From positions 63,071,585 through 63,135,584 of the forward strand of contig NC_060251.1 of assembly GCF_921293095.1 (NCBI RefSeq): 64,000 bases of DNA, read 5' to 3'. The position numbers were made by a program, and so were the translations under genes. Source of the stretch: Ischnura elegans (taxonomy: Eukaryota; Arthropoda; Insecta; Odonata; Coenagrionidae). Below the pieces are notes generated by a model. The model had not been told where the DNA came from and did no database searches. It worked only from the letters and a program-made list of their open reading frames with translations. This document shows, in pieces, positions 51,601 through 57,600 of this stretch (positions are counted from its first letter, which is position 1; the number at the start of each line of letters is the position of its first letter).

Positions 51601-54600
51601 ACAAATAGGATGAAATAAAAGTTGATAACCCTGGACCGGGCGCGCTGGCGTATAAAATACGTCAATCTTTGAAAACCAAGGATTTCAACATTGTTCGTAC
51701 ATTCTGGGCTAGAATGGTCTCGTGTATTCCTACAATGTACTTTGACTGCCAATATTGCGAGTTTTCAAAGTTCGAGGTATTGTAGCTAATTTTTTAGATC
51801 AGCAAGATGAACCCGTCACCAGTGGAGGACAACATGGCGGCCGGTCAAGTAAACATTGAATGTCACGCTTGTAAAAACCATTTAAAGGATTGTGAAAAAG
51901 CCCTTCCTTGTGAAAATTGCAAGCAATTTTATCATAATAAGTGTACGGGCCTTAAAGAAATTGCTTTGAGAGCTTTGGAGGAAGTTCCCGGATTATTCTG
52001 GAAATGTCTTTCATGTCGCGCTATTGAAGGAAACCGACTTAGCAAGATGGCGTGCGACATCGAATTATTAAAAGAAGAGATTAACAATCTAAAGGATAAC
52101 CCTAAGTTTCACGCGGGGAATGAAAATCGTGTGAAAAAGTTTAGTTTTGCTGAAGTGGCAAATCACGTAACAGAGGCCTCACATGACGAAGCTAAGCCGG
52201 TGAAACATCGTCAAAGAGATGGAAAAGAGGATGAGTTTGGAGCAAACACTGTTTCTGACTCAAAACCTTCGGCAAAAAAGGAAAAAACGACCCATGTTGA
52301 TCAAACCAGCTGCGGAATAGTGCGCCTAAACCATGAACAATCACGAAGAGAATCAGATGACGACGGCTATACCCGAGTGCAACACAGAAGAAAGAAACGA
52401 AACTTCTTTGGTATCGGAAAAGGTGCGACTGAAAACAACGGTGCAGGTCTCCGAGCTGCGAAAATGATAACGTACGTATATGTGGGCCGCTTGGCCAGCG
52501 ATTCCACTGAAGATGAAGTGGTAAAATATGTAAAAAATAAGTTTGACGTCACGTGTGTTTCTTGTGAAAAAATAGAAGGTAAAAGTGTACATGGTGCATT
52601 CAAACTCGGCGTGGAATACAGTGATTTTAAACAGGTGATTAATCCGCTTCACTGGCCTTCTGGCGTGATCATCAACAAATTTACAAGACCAAGACAACAG
52701 TCGACTGACACGAGAGTCGAACCTAAGGGTAAGTCTTCCTGACTAGCTTTCTGTGACTCAAATCAGCAAAAGACACACTCAGGGTTTAAATTACTGGTTT
52801 TAAACATTCAGTGCCTGAGTAACAAAATAGCAGAGCTTGAAGCACTAGCAGAGGCAGAGAAACCAGAATTTATATGTTTATGTGAACATTGGATGAGTGA
52901 TATAATTATATCAATACCAGGCTATGTGATTGGTGACTTTTATTGTCGGAAAGATCATCGTAATGGAGGTGTTGTTATTTTTGTAAAAAGTACATTAGTT
53001 TTTTCTAATATGTCGCATTTGGTGCATAATCTAAATGCTGAACTTATTTTTGAATGTGCAGCAGTGAGGTACACTGTAGCAAGTAATGATTTTATTGTAT
53101 TATCTGTATATAGATCCCCTGTTAGTAGCTTTAATAGTTTCCTAGAAATTTTAGATAATCTGTTGTACACCTTGACAAGTCAATTGTCAAGACCAAATAT
53201 TATATTGGCAGGAGACTTCAACTGTAACCTTTTAAAGGACGGACAAGATAAAAGAAGATTTTTGCGAATTTTACAGTCCTATCAAATGAAACCACTGGTA
53301 AATACTCCAACAAGGATTACTAATGGCACAGGGACACTACTGGATAACGTTTTCACTGATTACAATGAATCTAATGTTAATACTTCAGTATTTGACCCAG
53401 CAATATCTGATCATTCAGCTATTGTATCCATCTTTCATATACATGAGGAGCATCCTCAATCAAAAACCCTAAATCAATGTAGGTTCTTTAATGAGCATAA
53501 TATGAATTATTTTTGTGTATTGTTGAATCAAGAAGATTGGAAAGACATATATGGTGGAAGACCTCTGAATGTTAACTTTGATGAATATCTTTGTAGATTT
53601 AAGTATTACTTCAACTTAGCTTTTCCGCTGCAGTCCGTGGAACACAGGAGTGTCAGCACAAAAAAATGGGTTACAAAAGAAGTTCAAAACTTATCCAGAG
53701 TTCTAAAACAAACATTTTTGCAAATACGGTACTCAAATGATGATGGGTTGCGACAGAAGTACTCTCAACTTAAGAAAGAATATAAGATATTTATAAGAAA
53801 AGCAAAAAGGGAGTATAATGACCAAAGGTTTAGGAATGCCTCTAATTATTCTAAAGTAGCCTGGGACATCATAAAAAGTAATGTCAATGCCAACCCAACA
53901 GTTCTGCCAGATCAAGTTACAAATGAACAAGGGGAAATTACTACAAATCCCATTGAAATCTCCAATGCCCTAAACCACTCATTCTTGCAACTTCCTAAGA
54001 GGGTGATTACCACCCAAAGTGGAGCTACTCTCGAAAACCATAAAATAAGTAGCTCATTGTATCTTAAGCCTTGCTCAGAAAGAGAGTTGTCTCTCTATAT
54101 AGCCAAGATAGGAAAGAAAAAGTCTGCTGACATTGAGGGAATAACGGGAAAAGTAATTAAAGACTGTGAGTCCCTCATACGAAGACCCTTACTCTCGTTA
54201 GTCAACCAGTCCTTGTCAGAAGGTGTATATCCTGATTCCTTGAAGGTATCTAAGGTGGTCCCAGTGTATAAGAACAAAGACAATAGAAATAATCTGCAAA
54301 ACTACAGGCCAGTATCTATAGTGCCACAATTTGGTAAATTATTTGAGTATATATTCTGTAAAAGGCTCATTGACTATCTTGATAAGCAAAACATAATATC
54401 ACTCCATCAATATGGCTTTCAGCAGGGAAAATCGACAGAATTGGCTCTATTTAATGCAATTGATAATATTACACAGGAAATAAATAGTAAAAATAAGGTA
54501 ATGGGGATATTTTTTGACATGAGCCGAGCCTTTGATGCTGTGGATCATGACAAATTGCTAAAAAAATGTGAATCAATAGGTATTAGGGGCATTCCTCTAA

Positions 54601-57600
54601 ATTGGCTTAAGACATATCTTCATGGAAGAAAACAGAAAGTAGCATATAGGAAAGATGGGACGGTCTATTTCTCCTCCACATTAGAAGTCAAAAAGGGTGT
54701 ACCACAGGGGTCAGTATTGGGTCCTCTTCTCTTTCTAATATTCATCAATGACCTACCTAATAAAATTGTAACCCAAGATAATAAGTGTGTGTTATATGCA
54801 GATGATGTAACCATCTTATCAAAAAGAAAAAATCTGACCGCGTTAATTGATTCCAGTCAATATATAATAAAATGCATGCAAACTTGGTGTGATGTCAATG
54901 AACTAAGGCTTAATGATGATAAAACCCAAGTGATATTGTTTTCTGCTGGGCACAGCCCAAAGGACAATGATCTACTGCAATGTAAAAATAATTATCTCAA
55001 TGATATGGAATGTGTAAAGTTTCTAGGAATTTATGTGGATAGAAATATGAAGTGGGATGCACATATAGAGCACCTATGTAAAAAACTGAATACAGTGTTT
55101 TATCTTATATCAGTATTAAAGCATAGTGTAAGCCAGTATGTTCTGAAAACCCTTTACTATGGACTATTCTACTCAAGAATTTCATATGGAATTATAATAT
55201 GGGGATCTTCGCCCCAACTTCATGATGTGTTTGTTATACAAAAGAAATTTGTGAGAAGTATGTGCAAACTAAAGTATCGAGCTCATTGTCGCCCTTTTTT
55301 TAAAAGCCTTAAATTACTCACTGTACCTTGCGTATATATATATCAGAGTGTCATATATGTAAAAAGGTATAAAGGTTGTTTTACTATGAATAATAAGATA
55401 CATTCCTATGAAACAAGGAGATGTTATGACGTTCATGTCAAACAATCGAACCTAGCTCTGGTATCTAGAGGGCCTGAGCACATGTGTACAAAATTGTATA
55501 ATAACCTACCTGTAAACATTAAAAGTATAGAAAATATTGATGTTTTTAAAAAGAGGGTCTTTGCTTACTTAATAGAGAAGTGTTTTTATAGTATAAAAGA
55601 ATATCTTCAATCTGAAATGTAGCATTTTCTTATGTTAATTTGTTAATTTTGACGTGCCCTATATACTTGTTTAATGATTTTATCATGACATATTGTATCC
55701 TTGGGCAAATAAATATTATTATTATTATTATTATAAATTACGCCGCGCGACCTGCCGTGTACCTTTATATCTGTATCACCTATAAATGTACTAATTTCAA
55801 CAAATAAAGATTAACTTTAACAAAAATCGTTTGTTATCATATATGCACATATCATGGGCAAAGTACGCATTTTTCCCGGTCGTGTAACATAACAGTCGCG
55901 CCATAATTCTTTAACCAAACTACTTTCAGTTTATACATTACATAGGTCTACGCGGAAGATGCTACATTTTGACTCAACACACTTTCTGATATGACTGAGG
56001 TACCTATTAAGTAAATTATTATGATATAAATATCAATTTTATTTTACAATACCTTCAAATGATCTTCAAAACAGAATATCATCGACAGGTAAGAGTCAGG
56101 AGCAGCCTTGAACCATTTATTCCGTATGGCTTGTGCTTAAGACACGGGAATGAATATCTTCTCCAGGCTTTTGTTTCGACGTCGAGATGAAATTTGGAAC
56201 AAAAAATCATTTATGATTCTTTTTTGAATTCATGTTTTCCGTACTAGCCGACATTTTTAGGAAGCAAACTCCACCGATTCCCGGAAACTCTCGCCGCGCT
56301 AAAGAAGGCGACGGAATACAGCGATACTCCACTGGTGACTACTGCCTTGTGACGTCACATCTCAATCAAGATGGAGGCACTGTGTTTCAGCGCAACATGA
56401 AATTTTCCGACTTTCAAAACGTTTTAAAGTGCATACCCCAGATGCAGGAAATAAAAGTGACTATACTAATGTTTCTTTTTTAGGCTAAACTTTCAAATTC
56501 AGCAATAAAAAAAAATTAGTGTACTTCCCTATTGCTGTTCATAGTAAAATGCAAATCTGAGAATCTCACTCAATAAAATAGGTCTTTTGAGTTTCATTCA
56601 AAATTTTCCAAGGTTCTAGTCATACATTACTTGAGGTTACTTGAGATAGAGATAGTACAAGTAGAAAGAAAATAATGCATAATAACAATACTCATTTTCT
56701 TTACCTGACCAACCACACAGTCAAATTAAATGCTGTTGAGGTAGTCAAACGTTAAATCTATTGAGAAGTAAGGTACATCATTTCTCCAAATAGGGGCTGC
56801 ACTCAGTTTTAGGGTTCTAAAAGAGGGGAAAAAAGTAACAGCACACCCTTTCCAACCCATACTATGGAAGTGTAAAAATAGCAATTAAAAGACGCACAAA
56901 GAGGGCGTAGTCTCAAGCCATTTGAGCTGGAAATTGTTAACAGTCATTCTGATTGTGGAGCAAGCTGCCATGAAACAATGCTACCTTGCCCCATGCAATT
57001 CATTAGCACTATCCTTTTGTAAATGAACAAATTGTACACCAATTTGATCATTTTCAGCACGATTTTCTATTTTCCAATGGTTTCAGCAAGTTTAGCCAGT
57101 GAATCCAAACGGCTTGCTCAAATCTGTCATTTTTTTTAAGATTTCCAAAGGAAGCTTTTGCATTTGAGCCACACCTTCAATGTAAGAAACAACCAAATTT
57201 AAATGCTTTAAAATCAGACATAAAAGTGTTGTTTGTAATTGGTGTAACAGGGCTATGAAGAACAGGTAAGAGGACTATTCACAAAGTAAGGAACATTTTC
57301 GTTTGCTGTCACTAGGCACCCTCCAGTCGAGTACATCTTGGTGTCCGTGAGCTTGGTACATATGTCAGCGTCCAGCCGTGACAATGGGAACATCTCCGTT
57401 CTGCCCGCGTTTTCAATACCCAAATTAAAAATGTGTTCTGCAATTGAAAATCCTACCAGTGGCAAGGTGCAGTCAGCGTTACAGTTTCGTTGGCCAAAAA
57501 CTTCAAACCGATAGAAAATTATCGTCAAGTGTGTGAAGCGTACAGAGAAAATGTAATGAATGAAAGTTCAGTCAGGAAATGGTTCCGTTTAACCCTTTTA

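Follow-up and report, generated by a model that had tools for sequence, protein, structure and literature searches.

The window examined here, a stretch of 64,000 nucleotides (nt) of the Ischnura elegans genome (NCBI RefSeq assembly GCF_921293095.1, contig NC_060251.1, positions 63,071,585 to 63,135,584 of the forward strand), carries a full-length long interspersed nuclear element (LINE) whose two open reading frames, ORF1 and ORF2, lie in one frame and are separated by a UGA stop codon. Its endonuclease and reverse transcriptase are encoded in a single ORF, and it is found in at least 40 dispersed copies with a shared 3′ end, some of them truncated at the 5′ end. Copies and relatives were searched for throughout this genome (1.72 Gb, 110 contigs), from which all the relatives discussed below originate; in the DNA search for copies, the best 40 of 67 candidates were scored, and the copy counts are therefore lower bounds. 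From the domain order, we take the element to be probably a LINE of the CR1/Jockey type, with a PHD-like ORF1 followed by the endonuclease and the reverse transcriptase. That it is a recently active LINE of this type and that its stop is read through, as developed below, is very probable when both parts are judged together. The PHD-finger match of ORF1 (PF00628), at 17.5 bits (E-value 0.0043), falls short of the curated threshold of 24, and a sequence search of solved structures with the endonuclease part gave no match at E 0.01.

The limits of the element could be derived from its copies. The alignment to the window begins between 51823 and 51831 in 24 of the 39 other copies, with unrelated sequences upstream, which places the element start at about 51830, where CAAC-ATGGCGGC is read, and the ORF1 start codon four bases further on, at 51834. 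The start and ATG proposed at 51807 in the preliminary description thus belong to host flanking DNA. The copies reaching the 3′ end finish at 55730–55743. Target-site duplications were looked for in 20 copies and none was consistent, the longest common words being of at most 7 nt.

Table 1. Coordinates of the LINE and of its features in the window
Feature	Position	Strand	Basis
Whole LINE element (non-LTR, i.e. non-long-terminal-repeat, retrotransposon), full length	51830..55734	+	Copy ends, unrelated flanks
5′ end CAACATGGCGGC: leader of about 4–8 nt and ORF1 start	51830..51841	+	CAAC-ATGG in copies
ORF1, 302 codons and TGA	51834..52742	+	ORF reading
PHD-finger-like domain of ORF1	51861..52016	+	Pfam PF00628, weak match
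GGTAAGT, splice-donor-like, judged not functional	52728..52734	+	Absent from other distinct junctions
Putative leaky stop signal TGA CTA G	52740..52746	+	32/33 copies; six other distinct junctions
ORF2 frame, 959 codons and TAG (55620–55622), in the frame of ORF1	52743..55622	+	
Apurinic-type endonuclease domain	52800..53414	+	Pfam PF03372, 42.3 bits, ORF2-frame residues 20–224
Reverse transcriptase domain	54282..55034	+	Pfam PF00078, 132 bits, ORF2-frame residues 514–764
3′ (ATT)n tail	55715..55734	+	Sequence, copy ends

The anatomy of the junction is as first described: the TGA at 52740–52742 is followed by CTA GCT and then by an open frame up to the TAG of ORF2, the next ATG in this frame (52893) falls within the endonuclease match, and a GGTAAGT motif does precede the stop. 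Two other ATGs, at 52874 and 52880, are present between 52600 and 52900 in the window, both of them out of frame. A known leaky context, UGA-CUA-G, thus stands before a conserved in-frame extension of 959 codons. Such a context is not common in the surrounding DNA, since CTA follows 40 of the 2431 TGA triplets (1.6%) found in the window outside the element.

Among the 40 copies, 33 span the stop and 7 do not. A sense codon at the TGA position, or an in-frame ATG ahead of the endonuclease, had been named as observations that would speak against readthrough. Here, 32 of the 33 spanning copies read TGACTAGCT, and an in-frame ATG between the stop and 52893 is absent in 33/33. When the six bases of the stop region were left open in a genome-wide pattern, 33 places were retrieved, 32 with TGACTA and one with TCACTA. 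The same TGA is carried by two subfamilies and by the two 93% copies. Single-base insertions or deletions away from the junction break the frames in a few copies. Of the 20 copies that cover both ORFs in full, 18 have both of them open, which implies that the TGA was present in copies that amplified. Given how similar the copies are, the constancy of the hexamer inside the family is nevertheless weak evidence on its own. One copy, L046, lacks about 218 nt across the junction (52605–52822), the ends of this gap being away from the splice-donor-like site.

ORF2 is under purifying selection downstream of the stop. Compared with L039, a copy of 93.7% identity, 76 of the 152 changes in ORF2 are synonymous, where 24% would be expected (p ~4e-12). 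This bears on the possibility that the TGA arose by mutation within a formerly single ORF, disrupting it, and was then carried along in a dead or trans-mobilised family. Single-ORF PHD-type LINEs are indeed on record (PMC4120745), but the presence of the TGA in 32/33 copies, the selection on ORF2 and the recurrence of the hexamer at six other distinct junctions make this explanation highly improbable.

This recurrence was established by comparing the junctions of related families. A protein search with the endonuclease was performed, the best 150 of 2918 candidates being scored, with listed matches down to 35% identity; the numbers of families given below are therefore minimum values. Among these listed matches, 38 relatives were picked by hand, not at random, for their open frames and for the distinctness of their families. 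Eleven of them are uninformative, being truncated, without ORF1 upstream, or broken in ORF1 (L049, L050, L051, L054, L057, L063, L067, L074, L077, L080 and L081). In twelve others (L052, L056, L058–L062, L068, L075, L078, L079 and L082), ORF1 is in frame with ORF2, and it ends in all of them with a TGA followed by C, the stop context being TGA-CTA in ten and TGA-CAA in two. Together with the window element, these twelve relatives collapse to seven distinct TGA-CTA junctions and two TGA-CAA junctions. Mean pairwise identity among the seven TGA-CTA junctions is 1.00 for the hexamer itself, against 0.30 in the 45 nt that precede it and 0.25 in the 42 nt that follow. The flanks, at 25–30% identity, are thus at chance level. 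CTA follows the stop in 7/7, though leucine could be encoded by six codons, and a G comes next in 5/7. Seven of nine distinct in-frame junctions with TGA-CTA, against the 1.6% background of the window, would correspond to p ~1e-11 under independence, a value to be taken as a guide only since the junctions share ancestry. The preservation of the hexamer in distant families whose flanks have been randomised argues for the readthrough interpretation put forward in the preliminary description.

The same picture emerged inside these families. With the hexamer left as N in genome patterns for five other families, TGACTA was found at 34 of 36 places (4/4, 6/6, 6/6, 10/10 and 8/10, the last two places reading TGACAA). 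In the L059 family, the end of ORF1 is open into TGA-CTA in eight of nine further copies, the ninth being without ORF1 upstream; the last ORF1 codons vary between copies by insertions or deletions of whole codons, and the frame is kept. An in-frame TAA private to L059 itself lies 11 sense codons ahead of the TGA, at a place where 8/9 other copies are open. The stop inside ORF1 of L061 is likewise missing in L062, these copies being partly decayed. The family of L068, L075 and L082, which uses TGA-CTA, has a weakly GDSL-lipase-like (esterase) ORF1 end, detected at 18.6 bits, below the cut-off. According to a survey of the superfamily (PMC4120745), ORF1s of this type had been reported in vertebrate groups alone.

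These comparisons also bear on splicing from the GGTAAGT motif, which could join ORF1 to ORF2. The motif is a near-consensus donor and is kept in the copies of the window family that span the site, but it is absent from the other six distinct TGA-CTA junctions. The AGs that would keep the frame ahead of the first endonuclease motif define introns of 18 nt, or of 54 nt with 6 pyrimidines among the 15 bases before the AG, and no gap is seen between 52700 and 52899 in any of the 33 spanning copies. Splicing is thus a very unlikely route to ORF2.

A second type of junction was encountered in 15 of the 38 relatives, where ORF2 lies in another frame and overlaps the end of ORF1. Twelve of these have ORF2 in −1 (L053, L055, L064, L065, L066, L069, L070, L071, L076, L083, L085 and L086) and three in +1. 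A canonical slippery heptamer in the proper phase is found inside the overlap in L055 (U UUU UUA) and in L069, L071 and L086 (U UUU UUU), the junctions of L070, L076 and L083 being repeats of those of L069 and L071. In L053, the heptamer sits just before the opening of the ORF2 frame and a TAA intervenes, while no phased slippery heptamer was detected at the junctions of L064, L066 and L085. The three +1 relatives, L072, L073 and L084, form one family in which ORF2 follows a run of T (33 in one copy, 9 in two), possibly a slippage site. According to the preliminary description, an ORF2 in another frame in related copies would contradict readthrough. At the junction of the window family itself no frame change is seen, the 33 spanning copies being ungapped there, and the −1 position occurs in some sister families; by that earlier wording the latter counts against readthrough, and it is taken here as another recoding route.

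The frame relations are also difficult to reconcile with ORF2 being a separate protein, whose synthesis would begin at a non-AUG codon close to the stop, either by reinitiation or after internal entry of ribosomes. Such modes are known or proposed for other LINEs, such as L1 and SART1 (PMC5972666; PMC5009743). For reinitiation the relative frame of the two ORFs would not matter, yet both the common frame and the UGA-CUA hexamer persist across families with randomised flanks, and the −1 position of 12 of the 15 overlapping relatives points in the same direction. Moreover, the ATGs met first downstream of the stop lie out of frame: 52874 in 33/33 copies, 52753 in three and 52880 in two. A separately initiated ORF2 is therefore considered unlikely, although less remote than the other alternatives.

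A tree of the endonuclease (about 100 residues, 17 rows) requires the junction to have changed between the in-frame and the shifted type five times or more along well-supported branches; L074, uninformative at its junction, was labelled as a frameshift in it. The junction labels are not clustered on the tree beyond shuffled ones, 145 of 500 shuffles being as low. Inference from this tree is limited by the short alignment and by the exchange of ORF1 between families (L058/L059/L060 and L061/L078). L061 and L078 have ORF1 in common and not ORF2, and L059 shares the endonuclease start of L058 and L060 with a different ORF1. Judging from these sequences, ORF1 has been swapped between LINE families at points close to the junction. 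The endonuclease start is duplicated in L060. A sister LINE family appears to have two tandem endonuclease domains, with adjacent matches about 57 nt apart (G000:C2:37385119-37386486, C5:127140-128504, C7:1415495-1416862, C2:854728-856095, C13:21219987-21221354 and C19:106044718-106046085), and in L078 the TGA-CTA stands before the first of the tandem domains.

The 5′ ends show another common trait. Counting the window, 23 close copies have a 5′ end, and in 21 of them CAAC abuts ATGG. Besides the query, six L059-family copies that reach the start of ORF1 begin 4–7 nt ahead of ATGGCG; two copies of the L060 family begin 6 and 8 nt ahead of it, and two diverged relatives 4 nt; in the L064 family, 6/7 copies begin 3–11 nt before it, the seventh being shorter. 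Near-leaderless RNA thus seems common among these LINEs, with leaders of about 3–11 nt in four families, as measured on genomic ends and not on cap sites. The TISU element is linked to the transcription factor YY1, and its YY1-like consensus is SAASATGGCGGC. The window-family CAACATGGCGGC, read from genomic 5′ ends only, fits this consensus, hinting that promoter and start codon may coincide in the window family. Messenger RNAs with very short TISU leaders are described as needing no powered scanning (PMC6769788).

A programmed readthrough of UGA-CUA-G, yielding an ORF1–ORF2 fusion, is on these sequence grounds the highly probable mode of expression of the window LINE. Ribosomes would start at the ATG 51834 of a near-leaderless mRNA, the leader being deduced from the genomic 5′ ends, and most of them would terminate at the UGA 52740 to release the ORF1 protein. 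A minor fraction would decode the UGA as an amino acid, owing to the UGA-CUA-G context, and stay in frame. The product would be a fusion of 1262 residues carrying the endonuclease and the reverse transcriptase, presumably the working enzyme, and the readthrough rate would set the excess of ORF1 over ORF2, as for retroviral Gag over Gag-Pol. UGA is also the codon of selenocysteine. The UGA could thus be decoded otherwise, as selenocysteine or by a suppressor tRNA, or be bypassed by a 2A-type skip; no Rfam match was obtained in 51500–56200 and no NPGP (the 2A motif) in the three + frames. This is the least credible alternative, even if 2A is found in some LINEs (PMC5972666).

Several observations weigh against readthrough. 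The odd copy among the 33, the rearranged fragment L042, reads TCACTAGCT, with TCA at the stop. Constraint on ORF1 is weak in the comparison with L039 (21 of 62 changes synonymous, p 0.05), and none is apparent in ORF2 against the decayed copy L040 (7/25 synonymous over 159 comparable codons, p 0.39). Only three changes from L039 fall in the 50 codons between the stop and the first ATG, too few for a selection test. RNA structure 3′ of the stop does not exceed chance (z −0.87), so that no more readthrough is expected than the bare stop context would give. A search of viral contigs for relatives beyond this genome gave none, and the sample is thus that of one genome. Lastly, stop readthrough between gag and pol was proposed for the yeast LTR element Tca2, and none is reported in the reporter assay described (PMC7175516).

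The bare context has well-described counterparts. UGA CUA is a high-readthrough consensus in human cells, seemingly highest with G as the next base, and LDHB (UGA CUA G) reaches 1.6% readthrough (PMC4359377). LDHB, AQP4, OPRK1 and OPRL1 share this context with the window LINE; in these human genes it extends a cell protein, whereas in the LINE it would open the complete enzyme ORF of a transposon to translation. Murine leukaemia virus Gag-Pol similarly has an in-frame stop between gag and pol (PMC5009743), but there a UAG is combined with a pseudoknot, in contrast with the UGA-CUA-G of the LINE, for which no 3′ structure was detected. CR1-lineage PHD-type LINEs of the Jockey superfamily have the same layout of a PHD-like ORF1 before endonuclease and reverse transcriptase (PMC4120745), the UGA-CUA junction and the near-leaderless 5′ end being the features of the window element. 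The survey of ORF1 types in this superfamily nowhere uses the words “stop codon” (PMC4120745). L1 and SART1 also have a two-ORF RNA with ORF2 downstream, but are described, in the review cited, in terms of reinitiation (over a 63-nt spacer or at an overlapping stop-restart site) rather than in-frame recoding (PMC5972666). Translation of LINE ORF2 is more generally attributed, in the reviews cited, to reinitiation, 2A or an unknown mode of initiation (PMC5972666; PMC5009743). No report of LINE readthrough was found in a literature search from which subscription papers were mostly absent, and which does not show that none is in print.

How the second ORF of LINEs is translated is a long-standing open question. 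In this one genome, the junctions of many related families are of two kinds, with a presumably leaky UGA-CUA or with overlapping ORFs in shifted frames. The sequence comparisons support viewing the window element as a LINE with retrovirus-style in-frame recoding, and the simplest account of both types of junction is that selection keeps a low-rate route to the ORF1–ORF2 fusion, with UGA readthrough in families whose two ORFs have a common frame and slippage in those whose frames differ. A wider proposal, to which we lean only slightly, is that the whole clade follows an economy resembling that of Gag and Gag-Pol, with near-leaderless starts of the TISU/YY1 type, reverse transcriptase made only as a recoded fusion, and at least five switches between readthrough and −1 frameshifting, arising partly by ORF1 swaps. 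If readthrough is indeed at work, these LINEs would set their ORF1:ORF2 ratio by retroviral means, their active enzyme would be a fusion tethered to its own ORF1 protein, and the two modes of recoding would be evolutionarily interchangeable.

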